IMG/VR virus record: IMGVR_UViG_3300042549_009629
Span: 1-53,926 of that record
Origin: a virus
Length of the DNA stretch: 53,926 bases
Reading direction: 5' to 3' (one strand)
Translations under genes and position numbers: made by a program
Notes under the pieces: model-generated
What the model was told of the DNA's origin: nothing
Seen by the model: only the letters and a program-made list of their open reading frames with translations
Database searches by the model: none
Part shown: piece after piece, positions 1-43,831 of the stretch
How the letters are laid out: the number at the start of each line of letters is the position of its first letter
How positions within the stretch are numbered: position 1 is the first letter of the stretch

Positions 1-1015
1 TTGTATTAGTGGATCCGGATACTCCTATTGTGTATCGGGTTGTATTATCATCATATAATCTTACGTTATAGCAATATATTGCATTTCGGGAACCTGAATT
101 GATTAATGGGCCTGAGAATACGTTGGTTGCTGTGGTTGAGGTTGATGATATTGAGTTATTAGTTGTAGTGGCTTGTAATTGGCCTATTACGTTTATGATA
201 CCAGCCGTTGTTGAATTAATACCTACCGAGGTTGAAGTACCAGCTGTTACATTTCCTGTAATATTAATGGTTCCTATAGATCCGTTATTTATACCATGGC
301 ATGTAGCTGCACTACCTCCATTAACATTTCCAGTAATATTTACTGTCCCGATAGATGTATTTGATATTCCAAATCCAGATGTTGCACCAACAGAACCTCC
401 TGTTACATTTCCTGTTACATTAATGACTCCATTTGAGTTGTTAACTACAGCGATACATGCAGTTTGATATATTCCGGATGTTATATTGCCTACTATATTG
501 ATAATACCACTTGAAGCATTTAATACGCCGTAATTTTGAAGATTTGAATTTGAAGGGCATGTAACGTTGCCTAGTATATTAATAATCCCCGTTGAACTAT
601 TTGTTATTGTCACAAAACCAACTCCTGTAATTGCAGGTTGTTGAACTTCTCCTGTAATATTAATAGTGCCGCTATTAACATTTTCTAAGGTATTTCGGGT
701 TTGTAAAAATGTTGCTATAATTGAAATAGAACCAGTATTATAATATTTTATAAATCCACTAGTTACAGTTGCCCCGGAACTGTTTATTCCGTTAGGAGTT
801 GCTGTTATATTATAATCTGAAAATATATTTAATTGACCACCTGCTACAGCACTACCCGTTGCTATATTTCTAATACTCCTTACAATAATGTTTTGATCTA
901 ATGTTACCATTTGATTATTTAAAAATACATCATCAGATGCAGTAGGTATTAAACTACCACTCCATATTGCGGAATTACTCCAACTTCCCGAATTTATGGG
1001 CCATCTATTTGGCAT
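1..1015 (-). CDS. Beta-helix tail-fibre/adhesin paralogue, C-terminus cut by window edge
   Basis: A reading frame starts at ATG 1015 and stays open to the window edge (338 codons visible). I translated most of it by hand. It begins MPNRWPINSGSWSNSAIWSGS, the same N-terminal module as the three genes upstream, followed by ...PTASDDVFLNNQMVTLDQNIIV. The body is built from short repeats of the type S-x-G-x-I-N-I-T-G-N-V, as expected for rungs of a parallel beta-helix. The likely role is a tail-fibre or receptor-binding surface protein; this is inferred from architecture and position at the end of a fibre module. It is the fourth member of a tandem paralogous array, one base downstream of the previous stop. 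The C-terminal module seen in the other copies would lie outside the window. Confidence 0.75.
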   Translation of the reverse strand, partial: MPNRWPINSGSWSNSAIWSGSLIPTASDDVFLNNQMVTLDQNIIVRSIRNIATGSAVAGGQLNIFSDYNITATPNGINSSGATVTSGFIKYYNTGSISIIATFLQTRNTLENVNSGTINITGEVQQPAITGVGFVTITNSSTGIINILGNVTCPSNSNLQNYGVLNASSGIINIVGNITSGIYQTACIAVVNNSNGVINVTGNVTGGSVGATSGFGISNTSIGTVNITGNVNGGSAATCHGINNGSIGTINITGNVTAGTSTSVGINSTTAGIINVIGQLQATTTNNSISSTSTTATNVFSGPLINSGSRNAIYCYNVRLYDDNTTRYTIGVSGSTNT

Positions 1016-1016
1016 A

Positions 1017-2471
1017 TTATTTTCCTTTAAAGGCAGCAATAGTTGCTGCTGTAGTTTGTACTGTTGCTATATTTTGTAAACGAGCTCCAATTGAATTGGA
1101 ACCGGTTAAACTTGATACTGCATAATCTAAAATGTCTTGTGGGGTCAATATAGCAGAACCTGTTATGTTATCCACGGGTACTCCGTAACGAACAGAACCT
1201 GTTGAAGGTACTACCATTGAACCAGAAAATTGGTTTGTCCCACCATATAAACTTCCGCTTCGTACATTGGTTTGGGTGGGTAAACTTGAGGTAAATGCAA
1301 CATCATAAAATGTTACATCTTTTGGAAATGTATCGGATTGTAAAGTGTATGTAGGGGTTGAGTTTGATAGGAGTTGTATACGTGGTGAAAATATTGGGTT
1401 AAATGTATTAAATCCTGCTCCCATAGTTGCTACACGTACTAAACCAGATGTTGAAGTTGAAGAAATAAATGGACCTGTAATTGAACCGGAATAAAATAAA
1501 TTACCTGTTACAATTGTTGTGCTAGCACCAGTTGTAGATATAGGAATACCAACACCCTTTTTTTCTATACTACCTAATATGGTAATAGTTCCCGTGCTAG
1601 TGTGAGAGATATTATTTCCACCTGCAGGTTGTCCTAGTATGTTTCCAATTACGACTATATCCCCAGCAGTAGCTTTAAATATAGTTGCAGGGGCACCAAC
1701 AACTCTCCCTATTAAACTTCCAGAAATAAATATGTTTGAGTTTCCGGATGAATTATTTATAGTAACAGAGGAAACGTCACCTTGATATACACTACCCGTA
1801 ATAATAAGTGTATGTGCAGCCGTTTGCATGTTAATCGGATTATTAGCGGCATTTGCTGTGAAGTTATGATGATAAACATCTCCAGTAATATTAGTTATAC
1901 CAGTAGAAGTTGTTGTAATACCATTAGCTCCATTTACACTTCCTAGGCCAGGTGCACCTTCTACATTTCCAAATATTCGTAATGTGCCTGTTGAAGAATG
2001 TTGTGTTGCCCAACCGTTGGACGCAGCATACGCAACACCTGACACGCTTCCTGAGATAGTTACATTAGAAGAGCCAGTCATAAGTAACATATTTCCAAAC
2101 CCACCAGTACTAGTAGTATGATTTCCAGGCATTCTCATACTGCTGCTTATAATAGCAGAATTTGATTGAGATATTAAAAGCAATGAAGATGATGCTTGTG
2201 GTGCATAAGGCCATATTCCTGGGAGTGAGCCTGTACCATATGCTATTACAGTAACGCCATTATTTAAAACAAAAACTCCACCACCTTGTATATTTATTGA
2301 ACCTGATCTAGCACTTGTAAGTTGTGTTACTGTAATATCAGTATCAATAGTTACTCTTAATTGGTTCGGGGAAACAACATCAGATCCAGTAGGTAAACCT
2401 AATACCCCTCCGTTATTCCATGTTGCTGTATCTGACCAATTTCCATTTATTACTGCCCAACGAAATGCCAT
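1017..2471 (-). CDS. Beta-helix tail-fibre/adhesin paralogue (484 aa)
   Basis: This is the third gene of the tandem fibre array and the most divergent at its N-terminus: it starts MAFRWAVINGNWSDTATWNN and has PTGSDVVSPNQLRVTIDTDI in place of the usual PTASDDVYANNQ. The centre (about residues 60-380) is rich in Gly, Ser, Thr and Ile with recurrent ITGSV/ITGDV/ILGSI strings, consistent with a right-handed parallel beta-helix. The C-terminal module contains QTNVRSGSLYGGTNQFSGSM, then GVPVDNITGSAILTPQDILD. No enzymatic motif is visible. It is probably a virion surface fibre or a decoration of the long fibre at the tail tip. The homology to its neighbours is seen directly; the receptor-binding role is inferred. 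Confidence 0.75.
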   Translation of the reverse strand: MAFRWAVINGNWSDTATWNNGGVLGLPTGSDVVSPNQLRVTIDTDITVTQLTSARSGSINIQGGGVFVLNNGVTVIAYGTGSLPGIWPYAPQASSSLLLISQSNSAIISSSMRMPGNHTTSTGGFGNMLLMTGSSNVTISGSVSGVAYAASNGWATQHSSTGTLRIFGNVEGAPGLGSVNGANGITTTSTGITNITGDVYHHNFTANAANNPINMQTAAHTLIITGSVYQGDVSSVTINNSSGNSNIFISGSLIGRVVGAPATIFKATAGDIVVIGNILGQPAGGNNISHTSTGTITILGSIEKKGVGIPISTTGASTTIVTGNLFYSGSITGPFISSTSTSGLVRVATMGAGFNTFNPIFSPRIQLLSNSTPTYTLQSDTFPKDVTFYDVAFTSSLPTQTNVRSGSLYGGTNQFSGSMVVPSTGSVRYGVPVDNITGSAILTPQDILDYAVSSLTGSNSIGARLQNIATVQTTAATIAAFKGK

Positions 2472-2472
2472 A

Positions 2473-3840
2473 TTATAAACTTCCTGTTAATGCAATTAAT
2501 ATTCCGTCTGATGCAACTGTTGCTGTGTTGCTTAAACGTGCTCCTAAACTATTTGAAGCAGTTAAACTGCTTGTTGATGTGTTCCACACATTTTGTGTTG
2601 TAAATGAAGCAGAACCTGTTACGTTATCTACAGGTACTCCTTTAAGTACAGAACCGGTAGGAGGTATTGCTACTGTTCCTGTGAATTGGTTTGTATCTCC
2701 AAATATGGTTCCTTGTCTTACGTTTGAGGTAGATGGAAAATTACCTGGATAATTTTGTGTGTATAGTGTTCTTTGTTCTGCATATGTTTCTGTATCAAAA
2801 GTCCAAGTTGGGGTTGAACCTGATAGTAATTGGAATATTGGGGCATATACTGCATTTCTATTATTTTTATTATAAAATGGTCCTGTTAAAAATACACTAG
2901 GAACATTATTACTAATAAATAGTCCCGGGAAATTTATTCCTGCAGATATTGGGCCTAATATACGTATAGTACCTGTAGTAAGTTTATAAAATGCAGCAGC
3001 TGTTGCGGTGTCTGCAGTTGTAACACTCCCAGAAACTGTTATTGTCATTGATGTTGCAGCATTAATGTCTTGTAAAGCCGGTGCATTAGTTCCTAATAAA
3101 CTTCCTGTTATAGTTATAGTAGAAGTACCACCATTTACTAATAATGCAGGTGCACCTGCAGATGTTAAATTTCCATTAATGTTTACAATATTGTTATTCG
3201 ATAAGAGTAGTGCAAATGAATTAACAACGCCTCCCGTTAAATTACCCGTTATATTGATAGTACCACCAGTTGTTGATTGTATAACAGCATAAGCTGTAGC
3301 TAAACCACCACCACTAATATTACCTATTATATTTAATGTTCCTCCCCGATTAAAAACTATTCCATTTGAACCATTTTGCGCATATACAAAAACATTTCCT
3401 AATACATTTAATGTTCCTGTAGAGCTGTGTATTAAGCCAGTACCATTACCACCTGCAGGTGAATTGATACTTCCGGTATAAGTTAAATTAGCAGATCCTG
3501 TTAAAATTATGGCGGTATGGTTAAATCCAACATTAGACATAACAGGGCAACTAATAGTTGCTGAGTTTGATCCTGAAATGATAATCATTCCTGTTGTTGA
3601 ATTTCCGGGTAATATTAAACTGGTTACTGTTGCTGTAATTCCATTATTAAGGTAATAGGTTCCTCCATTTGTAACACCAGTAATAGTTCCGCTTTGTAAA
3701 CTACGTACTATTATATCGGTATCAACGTAAACAGATTGATTATTAGCATATACATCATCTGAAGCCGTTGGTATCAAACTACCGCTCCATATGGCTGAGT
3801 TGCTCCAATTTCCTGATGATATGGGCCATCTATTCGGCAT
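2473..3840 (-). CDS. Beta-helix tail-fibre/adhesin paralogue (455 aa)
   Basis: The start MPNRWPISSGNWSNSAIWSGS is nearly identical to the partial copy at the window edge and to the next gene upstream. After the N-terminal module (about 50 aa) come repeated I-x-G-N-I/L rungs such as LNIIGNISGG, INITGNLTGG and VNINGNLTS, so the rung motif here is ITGNL rather than ITGSV. The C-terminal module reads TSNVRQGTIFGDTNQFTGTV, then GVPVDNVTGSASFTTQNVWN. No catalytic residues are apparent. A fibre or receptor-binding role is inferred from the array context and the adjacent repeat-rich fibre. Confidence 0.75.
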   Translation of the reverse strand: MPNRWPISSGNWSNSAIWSGSLIPTASDDVYANNQSVYVDTDIIVRSLQSGTITGVTNGGTYYLNNGITATVTSLILPGNSTTGMIIISGSNSATISCPVMSNVGFNHTAIILTGSANLTYTGSINSPAGGNGTGLIHSSTGTLNVLGNVFVYAQNGSNGIVFNRGGTLNIIGNISGGGLATAYAVIQSTTGGTINITGNLTGGVVNSFALLLSNNNIVNINGNLTSAGAPALLVNGGTSTITITGSLLGTNAPALQDINAATSMTITVSGSVTTADTATAAAFYKLTTGTIRILGPISAGINFPGLFISNNVPSVFLTGPFYNKNNRNAVYAPIFQLLSGSTPTWTFDTETYAEQRTLYTQNYPGNFPSTSNVRQGTIFGDTNQFTGTVAIPPTGSVLKGVPVDNVTGSASFTTQNVWNTSTSSLTASNSLGARLSNTATVASDGILIALTGSL

Positions 3841-3842
3841 AA

Positions 3843-5333
3843 TTATACTTTAAATGATGATATGGTAGCTCCTACTGTTTGTACAGTGGAAGCTCCGGTT
3901 AATAAATTTCCTATACTACCCGAGGTAGTTAATGTTTGTGTTGCTACATCAAACATATCTTGTGGGGTTAAAATAGCAGAACCTGTTGTATTATCTACAG
4001 CAACTCCTGTTTTTACTGTTGTTGGATCAGGCATTTCAAGTGAGCCAGTTAATCCAAAGTTATATTGTGTTCCTTTTCGTACATTTGTTTGTTGAGGTAC
4101 TCCGGGAAGTTGATTTGAAGTGTATAGTGTTTTTGATACACCTACTGTTTCTGTATCAAAACGCCATGAAGTTGAGATAGGTTCTAGCATTTGCATACGA
4201 TATGCATATACGGCATTGAATGAACCGGTATTGAAAAATGGGCCTGTGAATAGGTTTGTTGCTGTAAGTCCTGTTGATACTAAACCATTGTTATTTGATG
4301 ATGGTGTCCAACTAGCACTAATAGGCCCTCGTACTACTATAGTAACACTAGCTGCTGTTGAATATATTCCAGAATTATTTCCTCTAGAATTAACACTACC
4401 AGTAACAAATATAAAACCATTACCTGAATTAGTAATACCATAACATGCAGAACCGGCTCCTCCATCAACACTACCTGTGACTATTATATTATTGATGGAT
4501 GAATTAAGAATTCCAGGGCTATTATTTCCAGTACTTCCAGATACACTACCAGAAATGGTAATAGTAGCACCGTTTCCAGCAGTTATTCCAGCATTATTAG
4601 TACCTACAGTTCCAACACCACCTTTAACTTGTCCGTTAACATATATACTTGCAGACTGCACAGCTATGATTCCATAGCATGTACCACCGCTTCCGCCAGT
4701 TACATTACCTTGAACTGAAATAGTTGAATTTGATGCTGCATATACTCCATACCCATTTGCGCCGCCACCAGCATGAGCAATAATAGACCCAGTTACAATT
4801 AATGTAGTAGGAGTAACCATCCAAATACCAGCACCACCTAAACCTGATCGTGGGCCGGCATCAACTGATCCGCTAATTAATATAATACCAGTTGAGGTAC
4901 TTAATATACCCATACATGCTTGGCCGTTGCCAGCAGTAGTAACGCTACCTGTTATATATAAATTTGATGCGTCTGACATCGATACAGCTAAATTGTTATT
5001 ACCGTTGGCAGTTGTTATTGATCCCGTTATATAAGCAGTATTAGATCCGGAGATAGTTACTGCTGCACGTCCTGTACCTCCAACTAAATAATTTCCAGCA
5101 TTACCTCCATTAATTGTAGATTGTACTCGTATACTGTTGGTTAGAAAAAATGTCCCTCCAGATGTTACACCTGTAGTGTTAATGTTATTTAATGAATTAA
5201 CAATAATATCTTGGTCTACAGTAACTAATTGATTATTAGCATATACATCATCTGAAGCTGTAGGTATTATTGACCCACTCCAAATTGCTGCATTGCTCCA
5301 ATTACCTGATGTTATGGGCCATCTGTTCGGCAT
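3843..5333 (-). CDS. Beta-helix tail-fibre/adhesin paralogue (496 aa)
   Basis: This is the first gene of the tandem array in transcription order. Its N-terminus MPNRWPITSGNWSNAAIWSG matches the other copies. The central region has about a dozen rungs of the form I-x-V/I-x-G-S-V separated by Gly/Asn-rich turns (for example ISGSVSGSTGNN, IIVTGSVDGG). The C-terminal module has QTNVRKGTQYNFGLTGSLEM and GVAVDNTTGSAILTPQDMFD. It starts directly after the stop of the 96-aa gene upstream, so translation of the set is probably coupled. The long central repeats make it a good substrate for recombination with the sister genes. Confidence 0.75.
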   Translation of the reverse strand: MPNRWPITSGNWSNAAIWSGSIIPTASDDVYANNQLVTVDQDIIVNSLNNINTTGVTSGGTFFLTNSIRVQSTINGGNAGNYLVGGTGRAAVTISGSNTAYITGSITTANGNNNLAVSMSDASNLYITGSVTTAGNGQACMGILSTSTGIILISGSVDAGPRSGLGGAGIWMVTPTTLIVTGSIIAHAGGGANGYGVYAASNSTISVQGNVTGGSGGTCYGIIAVQSASIYVNGQVKGGVGTVGTNNAGITAGNGATITISGSVSGSTGNNSPGILNSSINNIIVTGSVDGGAGSACYGITNSGNGFIFVTGSVNSRGNNSGIYSTAASVTIVVRGPISASWTPSSNNNGLVSTGLTATNLFTGPFFNTGSFNAVYAYRMQMLEPISTSWRFDTETVGVSKTLYTSNQLPGVPQQTNVRKGTQYNFGLTGSLEMPDPTTVKTGVAVDNTTGSAILTPQDMFDVATQTLTTSGSIGNLLTGASTVQTVGATISSFKV

Positions 5334-5624
5334 TTATAGTCCTTTTTCTATTATAAACTGTTGAATCGTTGTAAGTATGTTATATGCAGCTGTTTCAGCC
5401 GGTATATCTTCGGATTCAAATACATCCAAATAAACTACAGGACGATCATGTCCTTGTAATACATCAGTAACACCTTCCTCTGTTTCACGGTACGGAGTTA
5501 ATCGCATTGCAACACTTGCTCCTACACTAGTTTCTCGAACTATAGGAGAAATTGCTAAATTCACAGTATAGTATGGGTATTCAATTCCATCTACTACAAT
5601 TGGATTTGTTGATTGTATTGGCAT
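5334..5624 (-). CDS. Small conserved phage protein of unknown function (96 aa)
   Basis: A compact, mostly soluble protein with N-terminal beta-strand character (VDGIEYPYYTVNLAISPIV) and a C-terminal amphipathic helix (PAETAAYNILTTIQQFIIEKGL). There is no signal peptide, membrane segment or recognisable catalytic motif. It lies between the repeat-rich fibre gene and the adhesin array, 4 nt from the former and directly abutting the latter. A role in fibre assembly or as a fibre-associated structural piece is plausible from position alone. Confidence 0.6.
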   Translation of the reverse strand: MPIQSTNPIVVDGIEYPYYTVNLAISPIVRETSVGASVAMRLTPYRETEEGVTDVLQGHDRPVVYLDVFESEDIPAETAAYNILTTIQQFIIEKGL

Positions 5625-5628
5625 AACT

Positions 5629-7584
5629 TTATGAATATGTGTATGAATATCTATTTGTCCAAGCTGCGCTTGAAGTTGTTTGTGTTAAAGTAGCACCTGA
5701 TGATGATATGGAAAGTCTTGAAATATCCCAAACATCTGCTGATTCTGATGAACCACTTACTGCATCTCCTAGATATAACAGGTTAATGTTTGGATCAAGT
5801 GAGGATGTATAATCGCTTCTGCGAATATAAGTTGTTCCTCCACCACCACCACCATTTAGAGCAAATGATGCTGTTAATGCATATGAAGCACTTACAGAAT
5901 TTAAAACATATGATGCTGTTTGTGCTGTTTGAACGTATGAAGCCGTTTGAGCTATTTCAATATATGAAGCTGTAATTGCATATGAACTGCTTACTGCTTG
6001 TAAAACATATGATGCACTTATAGCATTGTTTGCCCAAGATGAAGTTCCAAATAATGATCCAGTTATACCAGCTGTTACTGTTAAACTACCTGTTATAATT
6101 GTGGTTGAAGCACTTGAATATATTTGTGAATCATCTAAATGATCTCCACCGTCTGAACGAGGGATACGCCATTTAGTTAGATTTGGTTCGTCACCTAAAG
6201 ATCCAGTATTGCGAGGACCAGACAATAACATACCTCCAGTATATGTGGCTCCATCTACGTTTTCGTAAACCCAATGATTATGTAATGAATCCCATGCTAA
6301 AGATGCAGATGCCGTTGAAGAACCAGAATCGTATACTTTTAAACCACCAAAACGTTGAGCCGGTTCAAATACATTTACCGAAATAAATGAAGCAGATACT
6401 GCTAGTTGAGATGCTGTGATGTATGTAAATGAAGATGAACCATATATAGTTACACCTTGTAGTACTGTTAAGCTACCTGTAATTAAAACATCTTGATTTA
6501 ATGTTTCAACATATGATGCTGTTTGAGTATATGATGATGATATTGCGTTTAAAACATATGATGCTGTTTGAGCATTTTCTACATATGATGCTGTTATAGA
6601 ATTTTCAGCCCATGAAGCTGTACCATATAAGCTACCCGTTATACCATCATTTACAGTTAAAGATCCTGTAATTTCAACATTTCCATCTCGTGAAATTGGA
6701 TTTGAACCTGTCCATTTAGATGAAACAATCCCTGTTAAATTTGAACCATCACCATAAAATGATCCTGTAAAAGAACCAGTATTATATGAAGATGTAAATT
6801 GATCAAATGAAGATGTTAAAACAAATGTACCTGATACTGCTGTAAATACTGGGTCTGTTTCATTGTAATATGAAGCTGTTTGAGCTAATTCAACATAGCT
6901 TGCTGTTGAAGAATATGAAGCACTTTCCGCATTTAAAGCATATGAAGCTGTTAAAGGAACATTAGCAGCATATGAAGCTGTTAATGCATATGAAGCACTT
7001 TCTGCATTTAAAACATAAGATGCTGATTCAGCAGTTCCAAGTAAGCTTCCTGTAAATCCACTTATGCTAGTTACACTGCCACTAAATATAGCGGGACCGA
7101 TATTGATAAATGTTGATGAACCCGATACAATTAGTGAACCCGTAATTTCAACGTTTCCTTCACGTGTTATTGGATTAGATCCAGTCCATTTAGATGAAAC
7201 AATTCCGGTTAAATTGGAACCATCTCCATAAAACGAACCTGTAAATGAACCCGTGTTGTATGATCCACTAAATGTTTCAAAACTTCCAGAAAGTAATGAT
7301 ATACTTGAACTGTTGTTTAATATATTTACATCAAATGAAGCACTATCTAAATAATATGATGCTGTAAATTCATTAAATGAAGATGTTAATACAAGTGATC
7401 CTGTATCTTGGGTTATACCAGCTTGCCCTTGAGGTCCAATAGATGAAACAGTAACAATATTGGTAACAGGTTGGGTAACTTCAATGTTTATACCTAACTT
7501 ATCGTCCGTTATAGTAACTTTTCCATTAGCATCTTGTAAAGATACATTGTTGTTGTTTTGGTTTACATTAATTGAATTAGCCAT
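5629..7584 (-). CDS. Repeat-rich tail fibre protein with TASY repeats (651 aa)
   Basis: A long fibre-type protein. Residues 1-60 carry an Asn-rich head and a tiny collagen-like GPQGQAG. Two near-identical blocks (about 107-151 and 267-310) contain TGSFTGSFYGDGSNLTGI followed by SSKWTGSNPI and GNVEITGSL. Three arms (about 183-240, 318-360 and 506-575) are made of reiterated TASYA/SASYVLNA units, each introduced by ITGSL-x-GT or a close variant. A globular segment (about 400-490) and a Gly6 hinge (578-583) precede a C-terminal tip of about 65 aa. The FYGDGSNLTGI motif and ITGSL strands recur in tail fibres of large marine and freshwater phages. It is likely a distal fibre; the receptor is unknown. 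Internal duplication is evident. Confidence 0.8.
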   Translation of the reverse strand: MANSINVNQNNNNVSLQDANGKVTITDDKLGINIEVTQPVTNIVTVSSIGPQGQAGITQDTGSLVLTSSFNEFTASYYLDSASFDVNILNNSSSISLLSGSFETFSGSYNTGSFTGSFYGDGSNLTGIVSSKWTGSNPITREGNVEITGSLIVSGSSTFINIGPAIFSGSVTSISGFTGSLLGTAESASYVLNAESASYALTASYAANVPLTASYALNAESASYSSTASYVELAQTASYYNETDPVFTAVSGTFVLTSSFDQFTSSYNTGSFTGSFYGDGSNLTGIVSSKWTGSNPISRDGNVEITGSLTVNDGITGSLYGTASWAENSITASYVENAQTASYVLNAISSSYTQTASYVETLNQDVLITGSLTVLQGVTIYGSSSFTYITASQLAVSASFISVNVFEPAQRFGGLKVYDSGSSTASASLAWDSLHNHWVYENVDGATYTGGMLLSGPRNTGSLGDEPNLTKWRIPRSDGGDHLDDSQIYSSASTTIITGSLTVTAGITGSLFGTSSWANNAISASYVLQAVSSSYAITASYIEIAQTASYVQTAQTASYVLNSVSASYALTASFALNGGGGGGTTYIRRSDYTSSLDPNINLLYLGDAVSGSSESADVWDISRLSISSSGATLTQTTSSAAWTNRYSYTYS

Positions 7585-7986
7585 TTAGAAACTTCCTAAA
7601 GTTACATTTTTAGATAATTGTACTTGTCCTTCAAGCAATCTAGTTACTACATAACAATGTCCACTACCCGTAGCAATTTCTAAATCATATACACCTTGAG
7701 TAAAGGATAATTGTGATGATGATTCTGCGGAAATGTATACTCCTATGGTACCTGATGTAGGTGGGTTGATCGAATTAGATCCACTTAAATTTAAACCGGT
7801 TCCACATGGGTCTAGGCTAGAGGATAATGTAATGTATACTTCACTAGATCCAACACTTGGTCTAATTTGCATCCTGGCTTGATATCCTGTTAAATCAACT
7901 GGAAGGTTATCAGAATCAGTGTATGCTATTTGAAAATTAGTTGTAGCACCTTGTTCAATTACAAAAGAGTATCTTCCTGCAGCCAT
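7585..7986 (-). CDS. Conserved phage structural/adaptor-like protein (133 aa)
   Basis: The sequence GRYSFVIEQGATTNFQIAYT, then LPVDLTGYQARMQIRPSVGS, then GVYDLEIATGS...VTRLLEGQVQLSKNVT fits a widespread small beta-rich phage protein family found next to tail-fibre genes. It probably forms a beta-sandwich of the baseplate-upper/adaptor kind. No signal peptide or membrane segment is seen. The stop codon overlaps the region immediately before the fibre gene start (1-nt spacing). Its position at the head of the fibre operon, behind an intergenic ATATTTAT motif, suggests it links fibres to the baseplate. The family resemblance is recognised; the exact role is inferred. Confidence 0.65.
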   Translation of the reverse strand: MAAGRYSFVIEQGATTNFQIAYTDSDNLPVDLTGYQARMQIRPSVGSSEVYITLSSSLDPCGTGLNLSGSNSINPPTSGTIGVYISAESSSQLSFTQGVYDLEIATGSGHCYVVTRLLEGQVQLSKNVTLGSF

Positions 7987-37906: not shown

Positions 37907-40900
37907 TTAAAGCAAACCTTTCTGTGTAAGATCGGTGATATATGTGTCAACGTTTTTATTTAATTCAGGAACTACATATTCAGGAGTTATAATATATGGG
38001 CCTGTTGAATTTATAGGTGCAAATCCTTCAAATAAAATTTGTGAAGCATCATCAACATATCTTCTAATTAAAAAATGATCTAGGTTAAAAGCATTTGAAC
38101 TAGCACTAACTGGAAGGTTTCTATTAAAGTGGACTTCAATTGAACCGGAAACAGATTCAGGAAATATTCTTGAACCAGATCCTTCTTCAGGCCCATAAAT
38201 TGTACCTACTTGATATGAAAAATCTTCTCTACCCTCAAATCTAAATTCATCTCCATATTCTATAGACCACGGTAACACTATTGGATTAAATCCAGAACCT
38301 GTTATACTAGTTTGTTTAACATTAGATTTATAAAGTTCAACTAATGTATAGTTTGATGATGTTATAATGTATGGATAACTTCCAGAATTTGGGAATTGCC
38401 ATATTGAATTGACTCCGGAGGATGTTATTGGTTGTGTATATAGTGGATATTGTGAGACCCAAAGTCTTGGATTTTTAAGATTTAAATTAGAACCTTCAGC
38501 ATAAATTTCAACATAAATAGTATCTCCTACCTCTAAATCTGAGGTTGGAATTTCAATAAAATCTATTCCTTGACCATTGAAAGAAAAACCACCAGCCCCA
38601 TATAGTTGTCCCACTCCACCTTGATCAGGATAGTATACCTTATTAACTCCTCTTTGTTTTACTATTCTTCCATATGCTGGGAAGCCACTTGAACCCGGAA
38701 TATTAATTGTATATTTTGTTTGAACTGAAAGGTTTACCCCGTCTGTTATAGTATTTGCAACAACAGTATATTCATTATTAGATACTGGAGTTCCATATGT
38801 TGTTTGGGTTAAGGGTACTTTAGTCCACGATTGAGCAGGTGGTGTGAATGGTGGAGTGGAAGGACTTGAATATAAAGCGGTATAGTTTCCTACAGCACCT
38901 TGATCAGAAGGAACAATATCTTCAAAACTCATTGTTGTATTCCACTGTGCATTTGGAGCACTTCCTGATTGGGTGTATAAAATAGGCTCAATACGAGACC
39001 CTCCTCTAATTACATTTCTATATTCTATAGCGTTTCCACTACCTACAGTATTTGAATTTATTCTAAATCTTTCTCCAGATTGGAATGTGCCTTGAACATT
39101 TGCAAGTGAATTTTCTGATGTGTTAGGGATAAAAACATCTCCATTTTGGTTAATTAGATATTTAACGTGAAGAGCAGATGCATTCATTCTTTCAGGTGGC
39201 CATCCTCCAATCCAATCACAATATGCAACCATAGTTTTTAAACTTTCTGCGGTTGGTGTTTTACCAAATGTTCCTATATCGCCTTCAGTCCATTTATTTA
39301 AAAATTGAGATGTTGATTTACTACCTAAATATCTTGGGATTATATGACGATTTAAGGTATAATTTGAATCTTGAACTGCTGCTTTCTTTGCACTTCCACT
39401 AATTAAAAGATCAAAATTAACTGGTTCTGTTATACCTGCTGAATAATCTACATCTTGGTAAGTTGTACTTAAACGAGTAAGTTCAACGTTATTTAATAAA
39501 GCATTTTCATCACTATTATAAAAATTAGGTGTTGTGATATAAGGTTCAAAAATAACAGGTTCACAATTTGAAGCACTAACTGCTCTACTTTGAGTAAGTA
39601 ATAATTGAGCTGAGGTTATATTTATTGCTCCTCCAGATAGAGGTTTTTCTAATTTAATATAATATTGGTCGTTTTGGATTGGGTAAAGTGATGCAGTTAG
39701 TAATATATTAGTAGTACCAAGAGTATTATAATATTGTGATGATATTACAGTTTCAATATTATTTCTATTTTGAATTAAAGATATAGGGTAAGATGTACCA
39801 ATACCAAAAGTTCCAGATGAAGTAATTGATGCTGAGAGGGTTAATAATGTATTGGGTGTGTTTTCAAATGTTAATATTCCTGAAGAGGTATTAAAATAGG
39901 AGGTTCCGTAATGGGGTAGGTTAGTTCCAGCTAATGTAGAATTCCAATTTATAACTGTTTTTGGAGAACCATTACCAACATTATATGATGCTGTTACAGA
40001 TGATGATACAGTATAATTAAATACTTGGTTAGGCCAAAATGATGAGATATATGTTTGAGATTTATTTAAAGTGTATAAGTAATAATTTGGGTTTTCATTT
40101 AATACTGTTACATAATATGGAACATATGTTCCTAATACCGAATTATATATTACAACTTGAGTAATATCTCCTAATACAGTTGTATTATTACTTCCACTAC
40201 AATCTATTTTTGCAATTTTTAAATATTGTGTAATCCATACATTATATGGAGGAGTAGGGGGTCCAAAACCAAAAATTCTAACAGGGTAATTATAAAATAA
40301 TATTTCTCCGTTTTGAGGTGAAGTAACATTATTTAAAAAATTATCTTTAAAAGTTACATCTTCTAAAGAACTTGTAATTCCATAGTAATGAACTTGTTTA
40401 TAATATGAATCTTGAACATCTAATGGATAAGATTGATTTAATACTTGAGTTGTAACTACTAAGTTAGAACCGCTATATTCACCGTTATAAAACTCATCTT
40501 GATTATCATGTAATACAAGTACCGATCCGGAAACTGTTGGGTAAGATTCGTACCAGCTTTGAGATATGTTGCTAAGGAAGTTAAATTGATTAACCATTCC
40601 TCCGGCACCACCATCAAAATGTTCTACAGTTCCTGGTTGGTAATCATTCCATTGGGGTTTTAAAGTTCCGGAAATGTCCAAATCTTCCCATTCAACTTGT
40701 GGTTGAGGGTATTTATTTCTTTCAAGTAAATGTTGTTTAATAACAACTCCAGAAGCAAGACTTGTACGTGCAGGTACAAAATCTTTAATCATTTTAAATA
40801 ATGAATTATCGAAAAATTTAATTAAACGAATGAAATCTGTTAAATTGTAATTTTTAGTATATTTTTCAAAATATTCATTTCGTAAAGTATCTAAAGCAGG

Positions 40901-43831
40901 ATATGACTCTGCTGAGGATGATCTTAGTCTTGGATCACCTATATAATCTCCTATGTTAAAATACCCAATTTGATTTACTATATCTTCATTAATTTCATTT
41001 TGTGGAGAAAATGCTACTTCAAGATAATTAATATTTTGAGTGTAACTTTGAGATACATTTGCCATTTGAGATAATGACATGAATGGAGATAAAGTATCTC
41101 CTTCAGGTATTACATTATTTTCTAAACGAATTTTATCATTAATTATATTTCTAACTCCTGCTACTGGTTGATCTGAAAAGAAATATTCTGTGTTAGGATT
41201 AAATAAAGGTATAGTAGAGAAATAAAAATTACTATCAGAGGGAAATGAATTTGTAATAGCCCATGAACCTGTAACTTTAGGGTGAATGGAAATGGATCCA
41301 GTGTATAGTTCTCCTCCTAAAGGAGCTCTAAAAATAAGTTCATTAGGGGAACTATTTATTGAATTTCCTTCAATTGAATATGGATTCATTACATAATCCT
41401 TAAATACACTTTCACTTATAGGGATAGTGTAATATCTTAATTCTTGAAAATAACCTTCAAAATTTTTATAGTTGATTGAGTTAAATGAAACAGGTCTTCC
41501 TAAAGATGATAGGGTGCTATTTGTCCAAGAATTATCTGAGGAAGTAATAGATGATGCTGAGTAGAAACCTAAAATGGTATTGTTATCTCCACCTTCATAT
41601 ATTTTATTAGATGTTACTAATTCAAAACTACTAGTTCCTCCTCCTAAGTTATGTCTATTTATCATTACTGACCACCAGTTTCCATCAAAAAATGGTAATA
41701 AAATGCTGGCTGAAGATAATGGGGAATTGGTGAAATCAGGATATAAAGTTAAGTTAGCATATTGATAGTAAGGATCAACAATAGATCCTGAATAAGATCC
41801 ACTAGATAGTAAAGATCCTGTATAGGTTAAGGTTAAGTATGATTTGTCATCAACATACCAAATACTTTGAGAATAAGAAAAATTAGAAGGAAATCCTGAG
41901 GGTTTAAATCTAAACATTAATGAATTGGGAACATCATTTAATGAGGCCCAATCTTTATTTACTTCCCAATCAGTATATAGAAAGTTTTTATTTTTAGTAT
42001 TAAATGAATAATTGAATTCATCTTGCCAATTATCCCAATCATTTGAATTAACTTTATCTTTTCCTCCAAATTCATTAATTCTTAATACAGTATCAGGAAT
42101 ACCATATGAAGTAATAAGAGCGCGCAGACCAGGCAAAGTACCTTTTGACTTGAGTAGGTATGGGATATTGTGGTAAATGCGTTTATATAGCGATTTATTT
42201 ACATCATCTAACGGTAAATAATCATTGGATGCCGAAGTAAATACATTGATATATTCATATCCTGAAGGTGTAGGGAGTGAACCTGTAATATTTGGGAATG
42301 GGAATAAACCACCATCTGGGGTTAAACCTAGAAATGCTGTGTATAAATCTTCATTGGAAAAATTATTTTGATATAATTTAACTCCAAAATCTCTGATTGC
42401 ATCCGCTACTATGTCTTTTGAAATACCATATTCTAAACGATTATCCGCATCATATTTATTTGTTACATCTTTATAATAGATCCAAATATTATCATAATGT
42501 TGACCCACCATGTCAATAAACAATTGATAATTGTCATTGCTTGGATCATTTCTTAAATACTCTGGGATTGCAAAAAATAAATTATCTGGGTTGGATAAAT
42601 CATATTGTGAGGCCGAAAGTAAAAGACCTCCATAATATATAGAATTTTCATCTGAAGATCCTAACCAAGTTAATACTATTGGGTCTGTTGAAGAATAAAG
42701 TTGGTAAGGAGGTTCTGTTGTTGATTTGGGATAAGCAAATGAACCGCTTGAGTAATATAAATAATAATCATAACCATCAAAATTAGTTATAATATCTGTT
42801 ATTTTAGCTTCATATATAGCTTTACTACTACTAACATTATTTGGAGAATTTATTGTAGAATCTAAAACAGCAATGGAAGCAGAGTAATCTTCTAATAATT
42901 CTACTTTATAGTAAAAATTTTCTAGTCTTGTCTTTGCAGAACTAAAATGTATAAAATTAGAAAAAGAAGTATAATCTACATTTATATCAATTTCTTTTTC
43001 TTCAAGTAAACTATTTATTTGATTTCTTGAACTAGTAAGAGTTGTTAAAACTAAATCACTATACGATAATGCTAATGTTGAATTGTTTACTTGATCTTTT
43101 AAATCAAGATTAAAATTAGGACCTCCTATTTTAACAGTATCATTAAATATTATAGGTTCAATTGGAAATGCTATTTGATAACTAATAGGATCTTCAATAG
43201 TAGTAACAACCCATAATGTACTATTTAATTCAATTGTATCAGGTAATGGTTCGTATAATTTAATTAATATAGTTGGGTTATTAATATCTTGATCATCTAA
43301 TTCAATATTGTTAGCTAATATTAAATTATTTTCTCCAAAATTTAAATAAAAATCTACAAAATAATTACTTTCTTCTCTTTCTTTAATAAATGCATTAGTT
43401 TTTTCTACTAAATCTAAAAAAGGTAAATCTGTACTATCTATTCTTAATTCAGTTCTATCGGATGATATTTCAGATATGTAAAGATTTTCAAGATATGATC
43501 CTATTTTTTTATCAAAAAAGTTAAAAGAAGTAATATAAGTACCTTGAGAAAACCCATTGTTAATTAATACTTTTTCAAGATCAATGTTGATTTGAGAAAT
43601 ACTATTATTATTACCTGAGGATTGTCCGTTATTTAGTACAGTGTATTGGGAAAAATTATATTCTAATGATAAAAGAGTTTTATTAGGATCATATATAAAA
43701 AGTTCAATATAACTATCAGATGTAAATTCTTTATTGATGTTAGAAGTAGGGATTAATGTTACAACTTGAGAATTATATTCTGTGGTGGAATTTAAACCTT
43801 GACTACTTACTTGAGTAATTTCTACAGCCAT
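37907..43831 (-). CDS. Giant baseplate/tail structural protein (1974 aa)
   Basis: The largest gene of the window. It is soluble, with Ser/Thr/Asn/Tyr-rich beta structure throughout and no signal peptide or membrane helix. The N-terminal about 450 aa contain repeated beta-domain segments. A conserved core (about 450-640) includes PEYLRNDPSNDNYQLFIDMV and KRIYHNIPYLLKSKGTLPGL. A lectin/LamG-like jelly-roll (about 640-830) has WWSVMINRHNLGGGTSSFEL. The C-terminal part has YCDWIGGWPPERMNAS and several Ig-like beta segments. It lies after gp6/gp25 like T4 gp7 but shows no direct resemblance that I can confirm. Likely a wedge or peripheral baseplate protein that may also contact host glycans. Confidence 0.7.
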   Translation of the reverse strand: MAVEITQVSSQGLNSTTEYNSQVVTLIPTSNINKEFTSDSYIELFIYDPNKTLLSLEYNFSQYTVLNNGQSSGNNNSISQINIDLEKVLINNGFSQGTYITSFNFFDKKIGSYLENLYISEISSDRTELRIDSTDLPFLDLVEKTNAFIKEREESNYFVDFYLNFGENNLILANNIELDDQDINNPTILIKLYEPLPDTIELNSTLWVVTTIEDPISYQIAFPIEPIIFNDTVKIGGPNFNLDLKDQVNNSTLALSYSDLVLTTLTSSRNQINSLLEEKEIDINVDYTSFSNFIHFSSAKTRLENFYYKVELLEDYSASIAVLDSTINSPNNVSSSKAIYEAKITDIITNFDGYDYYLYYSSGSFAYPKSTTEPPYQLYSSTDPIVLTWLGSSDENSIYYGGLLLSASQYDLSNPDNLFFAIPEYLRNDPSNDNYQLFIDMVGQHYDNIWIYYKDVTNKYDADNRLEYGISKDIVADAIRDFGVKLYQNNFSNEDLYTAFLGLTPDGGLFPFPNITGSLPTPSGYEYINVFTSASNDYLPLDDVNKSLYKRIYHNIPYLLKSKGTLPGLRALITSYGIPDTVLRINEFGGKDKVNSNDWDNWQDEFNYSFNTKNKNFLYTDWEVNKDWASLNDVPNSLMFRFKPSGFPSNFSYSQSIWYVDDKSYLTLTYTGSLLSSGSYSGSIVDPYYQYANLTLYPDFTNSPLSSASILLPFFDGNWWSVMINRHNLGGGTSSFELVTSNKIYEGGDNNTILGFYSASSITSSDNSWTNSTLSSLGRPVSFNSINYKNFEGYFQELRYYTIPISESVFKDYVMNPYSIEGNSINSSPNELIFRAPLGGELYTGSISIHPKVTGSWAITNSFPSDSNFYFSTIPLFNPNTEYFFSDQPVAGVRNIINDKIRLENNVIPEGDTLSPFMSLSQMANVSQSYTQNINYLEVAFSPQNEINEDIVNQIGYFNIGDYIGDPRLRSSSAESYPALDTLRNEYFEKYTKNYNLTDFIRLIKFFDNSLFKMIKDFVPARTSLASGVVIKQHLLERNKYPQPQVEWEDLDISGTLKPQWNDYQPGTVEHFDGGAGGMVNQFNFLSNISQSWYESYPTVSGSVLVLHDNQDEFYNGEYSGSNLVVTTQVLNQSYPLDVQDSYYKQVHYYGITSSLEDVTFKDNFLNNVTSPQNGEILFYNYPVRIFGFGPPTPPYNVWITQYLKIAKIDCSGSNNTTVLGDITQVVIYNSVLGTYVPYYVTVLNENPNYYLYTLNKSQTYISSFWPNQVFNYTVSSSVTASYNVGNGSPKTVINWNSTLAGTNLPHYGTSYFNTSSGILTFENTPNTLLTLSASITSSGTFGIGTSYPISLIQNRNNIETVISSQYYNTLGTTNILLTASLYPIQNDQYYIKLEKPLSGGAINITSAQLLLTQSRAVSASNCEPVIFEPYITTPNFYNSDENALLNNVELTRLSTTYQDVDYSAGITEPVNFDLLISGSAKKAAVQDSNYTLNRHIIPRYLGSKSTSQFLNKWTEGDIGTFGKTPTAESLKTMVAYCDWIGGWPPERMNASALHVKYLINQNGDVFIPNTSENSLANVQGTFQSGERFRINSNTVGSGNAIEYRNVIRGGSRIEPILYTQSGSAPNAQWNTTMSFEDIVPSDQGAVGNYTALYSSPSTPPFTPPAQSWTKVPLTQTTYGTPVSNNEYTVVANTITDGVNLSVQTKYTINIPGSSGFPAYGRIVKQRGVNKVYYPDQGGVGQLYGAGGFSFNGQGIDFIEIPTSDLEVGDTIYVEIYAEGSNLNLKNPRLWVSQYPLYTQPITSSGVNSIWQFPNSGSYPYIITSSNYTLVELYKSNVKQTSITGSGFNPIVLPWSIEYGDEFRFEGREDFSYQVGTIYGPEEGSGSRIFPESVSGSIEVHFNRNLPVSASSNAFNLDHFLIRRYVDDASQILFEGFAPINSTGPYIITPEYVVPELNKNVDTYITDLTQKGLL

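Follow-up and report, generated by a model that had tools for sequence, protein, structure and literature searches.

The window analysed here is the entire record IMGVR_UViG_3300042549_009629 (positions 1–53,926), and its positions 1–5333 hold four paralogous adhesin-like open reading frames, arranged head to tail on the minus strand: g1 (3843..5333, 496 aa), g2 (2473..3840, 455 aa), g3 (1017..2471, 484 aa), and g4 (1..1015, with its ATG at 1015; 338 aa, open at the contig end). The gaps between them are 2, 1, and 1 nt. g1 is 39, 32, and 41% identical to g2, g3, and g4, respectively, with the N- and C-terminal modules conserved, and as a query against its own record it matches only at these places. 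The tandem paralogues with near-zero spacing, the conserved terminal modules, and the ITGSV- or ITGNL-type rungs described in an earlier note on this DNA are thus all seen in the reading frames and their translations.

Each adhesin would be composed of an N-terminal cap, a right-handed beta-helix shaft, and a C-terminal domain. The caps, of about 50 aa, lie at 5184..5333 (g1), 3691–3840 (g2), 2322–2471 (g3), and 866–1015 (g4), and the variable shafts at 4341..5183 (g1), 2971..3690 (g2), and 1515..2321 (g3), all on the minus strand. The putative C-terminal 'address' domains, with a boundary that we chose at 165 aa from the protein end, occupy 3843..4340 (g1), 2473..2970 (g2), and 1017..1514 (g3) on the same strand; in g4 only the start of the domain falls within the window (1..193, boundary approximate).

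In an AlphaFold2 model the g1 shaft has the regular three-strand rungs of a right-handed parallel beta-helix, with pLDDT mostly 70–96 over residues ~130–340. VIA-align places this model close to Vag8 (Z 30.5), the Sf6 tailspike (Z 24.9), and CBA120 TSP3 (Z 23.3), and Foldseek gives a best E of 0.042 against the PDB alone and 1.1e-14 (38% identity) against A0A6J5NS31 of an uncultured Caudovirales in BFVD; these lists mainly reflect the beta-helix and are uninformative on the C-terminal domain. The uncharacterised A0A6J5NS31 belongs to the adhesin family or stands close to it. The earlier description of the genes as beta-helix adhesins stands insofar as they are tandem, paralogous, modular, adhesin-like, and in a phage structural region, while the fold of the shaft is a prediction. 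g1–g4 have no Pfam or PHROG match at E ≤ 1 (g4 being partial), and a weak G8 (PF10162) similarity of the cap in one relative is below the cut-off.

Directly upstream of g1, with a spacing of 0 nt, lies a conserved 96-aa gene, s96 (5334..5624, minus strand), and further upstream on the same strand are a 651-aa SASYALTAS-repeat protein that is probably a fibre (5629..7584) and a 133-aa protein of phrog_1084 with weak matches to L-shaped tail fibre assembly proteins (7585..7986). The record carries the marks of a T4-like (gp23-type) myovirus, i.e. a gp23-type major capsid protein (PF07068, E 6.6e-73) and a T4-type portal, protease, and large terminase assigned by PHROGs. The nearest isolate by capsid is Flavobacterium phage immuto (57% identity), and none of the 16 genes tested from its structural region matches g1–g4 or s96.

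The array recurs in 20 further contigs. Exactly four genes in identical order are found in all 12 of the contigs in which every gene is intact; these 12 arrays are 10 distinct ones at the DNA level (contig L020 is 100% identical to L021, and L038 to L039). One further contig, L025, has broken frames in g2/g3, and in the remaining seven, contig ends truncate the array but the order is consistent with g1–g4. The copy-number variation that the earlier note suggested looking for is absent within this clade (12/12), and it is not the case for the close relatives that all have a single gene.

Each position in the array owns a distinct C-terminal domain of about 165 aa. The best match of this domain in other contigs is at its own position in 59/59 proteins, compared with 50/59 for the shafts and 43/59 for the 50-aa caps, which carry only a loose position signal. 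The C-terminal domains group into four clades that require the minimum number of position changes (supports 99/98, 92/88, 100/99, and 100/99 for positions 1–4), and the four genes of the window score best with the HMM of their own position: C1 for g1 (290.8 bits vs 123 for the next), C2 for g2 (274.6 vs 132.6), C3 for g3 (281.5 vs 126.6), and C4 for the partial domain of g4 (93.0 vs 32.4). The median identities between contigs are 74, 66, 67, and 76% for C1–C4, comparable to those of the tail sheath (64%) and tube (67%). The divergences of the four domains are correlated (rho 0.48–0.86, p at most 0.024 in 6/6 pairs), although the correlation leans on three divergent contigs, without which two of the six pairs keep p < 0.05. 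Such a position code, readable from sequence, would allow shafts and sockets to be sorted in metagenomes.

The shafts exhibit a different pattern, with near-saturated divergence. Their median identities between contigs are 35, 33, 36, and 44% at positions 1–4; comparisons across positions give 32% and shuffled letters 28%. Shafts also jump between positions sometimes: the position-2 protein of contig L009 and the position-3 protein of L012 are 70–90% identical over about 240 residues and then only 17–50%. Since shafts favour their own position (50/59), cross-position transfer is in the minority.

An insert of ~150 aa is present in 6/17 full-length position-3 proteins. Four of these proteins were scanned one at a time, and in each the insert has a match to phrog_17517 'tail protein' (E 1.7e-19 to 1.3e-25). 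Similar stretches occur in isolate phages, in proteins whose annotations read tail, carbohydrate-binding, or F5/8 type C; Pfam matches to F5/8 type C are below the cut-off. The g3 of the window is without this discoidin-like insert, which six relatives have.

Two phage lineages carry the cassette. In one it is placed between the capsid/PhoH genes and the neck genes; in the other it immediately precedes a coiled coil and the tail sheath. Between these lineages PhoH is 45% and the sheath 40% identical, while s96 is 84% and C1–C4 are 75, 68, 69, and 79% identical, equal to the level within a lineage. Therefore, s96 and the four genes have probably been traded between phage lineages as a block.

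Many other phages also carry s96 paired with an adhesin, typically a single one; 4/36 bounded loci of this wider family have two copies. The C-terminal domains and s96 do not diverge in step. The pair is a recurrent phage module; searches of PHROGs and Pfam gave no match to it, and those of the PDB none above chance level (the one PDB match of s96 has E 0.45). In tblastn searches of 50,697 phage records, seven queries (g1, s96, and five relatives) gave no match, and the matches of two insert-bearing proteins to isolates were confined to the region around the insert. In bacterial genome contigs scanned with the position-3 alignment, 123 pattern matches included no relative.

Taken together, these results suggest, with a probability of roughly 0.55, that the array encodes a four-socket adhesin rack on the virion of a T4-like phage, with C-terminal addresses. 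This reading is supported by the C-terminal domains fixed by position, the variable and sometimes transplanted shafts, and the pattern of exchange between lineages, and further by the receptor-type position-3 insert and a beta-helix like those of tailspikes and adhesins. Counting against it are the tblastn results, with no isolate match outside the region of the insert, the low-confidence monomer model of the C-terminal domain, the preference of shafts for their own position, the reliance of the C-terminal co-divergence on three contigs, the independent divergence of s96, and the F5/8 type C matches below the Pfam cut-off. We infer that the shaft would meet the host surface, probably its glycans, and that the C-terminal domain would be the docking end, fitting one of four fixed sites, whether on the virion or within a hetero-complex formed by the four proteins. 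C-terminal domains would stay with their position, and recombination between phage genomes would bring in new shafts, which would now and then land at another position. s96, the putative ancestral partner, might serve as an adaptor or in assembly. It is possible, and proposed only tentatively, that the four C-terminal domains co-evolved in one hetero-complex, i.e. a mirror-image branched receptor-binding complex with exchangeable N-terminal arms, which grew from the widespread s96–adhesin module and was traded whole between divergent T4-like lineages.

The C-terminal domains may, on the other hand, serve in folding or in trimerisation, as intramolecular chaperones or trimer clamps, in four ordinary and independent fibres; their position-specificity would then reflect nothing more than an old duplication, and there would be no rack. 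Intramolecular chaperones of tailspikes look similar, being conserved C-terminal modules that follow variable beta-helices. The AlphaFold2 monomer of the domain (60 alignment rows) gave no confident model (mean pLDDT 58, pTM 0.24), and its last ~20 aa are modelled as a low-confidence helix, as may be expected under this explanation. However, a generic module would be free to travel with its shaft, whereas all 59 C-termini stay in place as shafts move, and neither a peptidase S74-type domain (Pfam, E ≤ 1; g1–g3 and the partial g4) nor another Pfam or PHROG match was found; a profile of the domain has no PDB match at E ≤ 10. We consider this explanation unlikely.

Decoration of the head or tail tube, instead of the baseplate, by C-terminally anchored Hoc- or tentaclin-like fibres, whose N-terminal binding ends tether the phage to surfaces or particles, is also unlikely. 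PMC10743442 describes this polarity for T4 Hoc, with its C-terminal capsid anchor, and for tentaclins, with a proposed C-terminal virion anchor and an N-terminal variable binding domain, and the location of the cassette next to head or sheath genes, depending on the lineage, agrees with such a decoration. Hoc and tentaclins are defined in that article by a C-terminal Ig-like domain carrying a consensus motif and, for tentaclins, an N-terminal C-type lectin domain. In contrast, g1–g4 have no Pfam match to an Ig or lectin domain at E ≤ 1 and are predicted to be beta-helical, and the insert and a neighbouring gene match tail or tail-fibre-assembly families.

It is very improbable that the array is a within-genome reservoir, in which silent donors rewrite one expressed adhesin in the manner of phase variation or a diversity-generating retroelement (DGR). 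The similar 5' ends of the tandem paralogues would suit such a role. Tentaclins can be DGR targets (PMC10743442), but RVT_1 was found in 0/7 cassette records (the window and six relatives, possibly incomplete), with controls giving a signal, in agreement with the earlier note, which saw no reverse transcriptase; a DGR target is rejected on this basis. The cap DNA of different positions shows no excess similarity within contigs over that between contigs (434/2000 permutations as high), and hence no signal of intragenomic gene conversion. All four genes are intact and closely spaced in the 12 complete arrays, and near-identical contigs from different samples are identical through the cassette (e.g. 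100% over 12,577 nt and 17,263 nt). Overall, near-identical contigs are the same or almost the same, apart from the pairs L028/L046, with 94.4% identity across 6.4 kb, and L024/L025, at 99.7% and gapped. The recombination reservoir proposed earlier is thus largely refuted. Assembly duplication or chimerism, to which the position of g4 at the contig end might point, is rejected, because the array recurs with four genes in the same order in all 12 intact relatives from independent assemblies, its paralogues are only 32–41% identical to g1, and some arrays are 100% identical between different metagenomes.

The carriage of several different adhesins is best known from the Ackermannviridae and from other phages of enterobacteria, where the addresses are N-terminal. 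In literature searches, with many subscription journals outside their coverage, no listed title concerned a C-terminally coded four-gene adhesin array. In T4-like pelagi- and cyanomyophages a hypervariable fibre region lies inside the structural genes next to the neck gene gp14; the host recognition cluster is large and non-syntenic, and a fixed four-gene paralogous cassette is not described in the accessible part of that article (PMC7029224). According to PMC11414711, a single gene cluster of Ackermannviridae such as CBA120 and S117 encodes as many as four receptor-binding tailspikes, which form a branched complex and are addressed N-terminally by conserved assembly domains (XD, TD, and an anchor), with the variable part C-terminal. 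Given these and the two-copy loci of the wider family, the earlier note overstates how rare tandem fibre paralogues are. The two systems are alike in having conserved assembly parts and variable binding parts, and in that phages exchange parts or genes with one another (PMC11414711). In contrast, the position-specific domain of g1–g4 is C-terminal, no N-terminal XD (gp10-like), TD, or anchor was found with Pfam or PHROG at E ≤ 1, and g1–g4 are clear paralogues of one family outside those libraries. If real, the rack would mirror the N-terminally addressed tailspikes of the Ackermannviridae, and its four-position code of opposite polarity would give environmental T4-like phages a design of their own, the second after that one, for bearing several binding arms simultaneously.

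The four adhesin genes lie on the minus strand of the window at 3843–5333 (position 1), 2473–3840 (position 2), 1017–2471 (position 3) and 1–1015 (position 4, cut by the contig end). The order begins with s96, the gene of a conserved 96-aa protein, and the spacings from s96 through the four adhesins are 0, 2, 1 and 1 nt. None of the four proteins matches a PHROG or Pfam family at E ≤ 1, and a search of ten records (19–145 kb) with the position-1 protein gave no match beyond the cassette formed by these five genes. IMG/VR scans with the position-1 protein and with alignments of positions 1 and 3 yielded 20 further contigs of the same clade, all of which were inspected, and their genes were assigned to positions with four C-terminal HMMs. 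The tandem array of four paralogues described in the earlier note recurs in these contigs: twelve of the 20 have all four genes complete, with four and no more in each and the order 1-2-3-4 in every case. Contig ends truncate another seven, and in one (L025) the frames of genes 2 and 3 are broken. Neighbouring genes are separated by 1–3 nt at all 41 junctions measured. A scan with the position-4 alignment added six fragments consistent with the same order and one distant contig, L065. Upstream of s96 lies the gene of a low-complexity protein with SASYALTAS repeats, of 651 aa in the window (5629–7584) and 1183–1549 aa in relatives (L013, 4377–7928; L008, 5047–9696; L010, 2007–6302); the window gene has 27-nt tandem repeats at 5905–5973 and 6553–6621.

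The C-terminal end is the part that follows position most strictly. Complete C-terminal domains score 230–308 bits with their own HMM and at most 143 bits with the next best; the HMMs were trained partly on the sequences scored, and therefore the BLAST and tree tests carry more weight. Of 65 proteins, 6 are partial and were left out. When the 59 full-length ones are compared by BLAST with proteins of other contigs, the last 165 aa find their best match at the same position in 59 of 59 cases, the shafts in 50 and the first 50 aa in 43. In a maximum-likelihood tree built from the C-terminal 165 aa, the proteins fall into four position groups with the minimum possible number of changes; positions 1, 2, 3 and 4 have supports of 99/98, 92/88, 100/99 and 100/99, respectively, with the bootstrap not fully settled. 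The median pairwise identities of the C-terminal domains (C1–C4) are 74, 66, 67 and 76%, as compared with 85% for s96, 64% for the tail sheath and 67% for the tail tube, while those of the shafts are 35, 33, 36 and 44%, the baselines being 32% for shafts compared across positions and 28% after shuffling of the letters. Therefore, the C-termini diverge like core virion proteins, and three of the four shafts are barely more alike within a position than across positions.

Replacement of shafts is visible in individual pairs. The position-1 proteins of the window and of the related contig L007 are 25–42% identical by blocks from residue 41 to about 277, and 77–100% thereafter. The position-2 protein of L009 and the position-3 protein of L012, from different phages, are 70–90% identical over about 240 residues, and identity falls to 17–50% in the C-terminal part. 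Among 65 same-position pairs with C-terminal identity ≥ 80%, 25 have shafts ≤ 40% identical. An insert of about 150 aa directly behind the N-terminal cap is present in 6 of 17 full-length position-3 proteins and absent from all proteins of positions 1, 2 and 4. The 'tail protein' family phrog_17517 matches four of these six when scanned singly (E 1.7e-19 to 1.3e-25), and 4 of the 9 members of the position-3 alignment. The likeness of the insert to Pfam F5/8 type C is below that family's cut-off and only suggestive; isolate phage proteins matching around the insert of two family members, L092 and the position-3 protein of L013, carry tail, carbohydrate-binding or F5/8 type C annotations.

Across ten contigs, the pairwise divergences of C1–C4 are correlated (rho 0.48–0.86; p ≤ 0.024 in all six pairs), while none of six cap pairs and one of seven shaft–C-terminus comparisons (p 0.049) reach p 0.05. 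When three divergent contigs are removed, C1–C3 and C1–C4 alone remain below 0.05. The divergence of s96 does not correlate with that of the C-termini, and that of the sheath correlates negatively. These patterns fit C-termini that are co-inherited or have co-evolved, and do not amount to proof of contact between them. By Pearson correlation, shaft 4 tracks C4 with r 0.53 and shaft 3 with r 0.52, so position 4 has less freedom than the other three.

The window is a linear record of 53,926 bases from a phage that is T4-like by gene content. It encodes a gp23 capsid protein (PF07068, E 6.6e-73) and PhoH, and has PHROGs matches for prohead protease, portal and large terminase. Among isolates, Flavobacterium phage immuto has the most similar capsid (57% identity across 99% of the protein), so a Bacteroidota host may reasonably be inferred. 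The capsid of Microcystis phage Mel-JY01 (PP395634.1) is 47% identical over 99% to this Flavobacterium-phage-like capsid, and the host assigned to that phage may be worth verifying. Near the baseplate-like genes, a 1974-aa ORF (37907–43831) has no PHROG match at E ≤ 0.001. The segment 34793–35248, adjoined by a primase-like gene, matches both an 'NAD synthetase' PHROG (E 6e-27) and a homing-endonuclease PHROG (E 1.7e-8).

By gene order the contigs split into two lineages. In lineage A (the window, L007, L013 and L019) neck-like genes come after the cassette; in lineage B they precede it, and it is followed by a coiled coil and the sheath. Between lineages, PhoH is 45% identical (6 pairs) and the sheath 40% (12 pairs, all involving L013, where two sheath-like genes are present and paralogy may exaggerate the distance). 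In contrast, s96 (84%) and C1–C4 (75, 68, 69 and 79%) are as similar between lineages as within them. The simplest reading is that s96 and the four genes travel as one block between divergent T4-like phages; the alternative is that strong shared constraint has kept the cassettes alike. Lineage A seemingly has two successive tail-sheath-like genes (L013, 17974–19980 and 20026–21803; L061, 6054–7817 and 7863–9104) and lineage B one. Between structural genes near the cassette, L062 (1890–2546) and L065 (5409–6050) have ORFs that we take, by motif, to resemble GIY-YIG and HNH homing endonucleases.

A broader search, with 60 C-terminal domains as queries, produced 441 pattern matches and 248 relatives; 80 of the relatives were retained. 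Fifty-six loci were inspected (L084–L136, L065, L068 and L070, some on a common contig), and 55 have a family member at the cut-off used. At the 36 loci with sequence on both sides, one gene is found in 32 and two in four. A homologue of s96 occurs at 38 of the inspected loci, directly before the adhesin in the cases looked at. Two complete copies are present in each of L065 and L068, which are related contigs; in L065 the terminal part of another frame of this kind lies upstream, so at least three copies are likely there. In the wide tree, positions 1–4 cluster with L065/L068 (SH-aLRT 98), positions 2 and 3 forming one subgroup (97) and positions 1 and 4 with L065/L068 another (91). The four-gene array is thus an expansion within one clade of a widespread, usually single-adhesin module. 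In L065 (1–2707) and L068 (1–3205) the family has undergone a tandem expansion of its own; L065_116 and L068_117 are paired in the tree, so position may matter there too.

AlphaFold2 on nine position-1 rows predicts a right-handed beta-helix with good confidence mid-protein (overall pLDDT 66). On its own the model is weak in a Foldseek search of the PDB (best E 0.042); realigned, it gives Z 30.5 to Vag8, 24.9 to Sf6 tailspike and 23.3 to CBA120 TSP3. The C-terminal domain shows no resolved fold when predicted as a monomer. The shafts would read a putative ligand on the cell surface, each protein being docked by its C-terminus in its own site, presumably on the virion. A lineage that carries several arms on each particle and exchanges shafts one at a time could follow changes in host glycans while the docking site is kept.

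Where the arms would sit admits a second answer, decoration of the head or tail tube, which stays alive because tentaclins and Hoc are proposed or demonstrated phage examples of C-terminal anchoring combined with a variable N-terminus (PMC10743442). In the Ackermannviridae, four tailspikes are joined by their N-terminal domains and the C-terminal end varies (PMC11414711). In the present cassette, in contrast, the position code is C-terminal.
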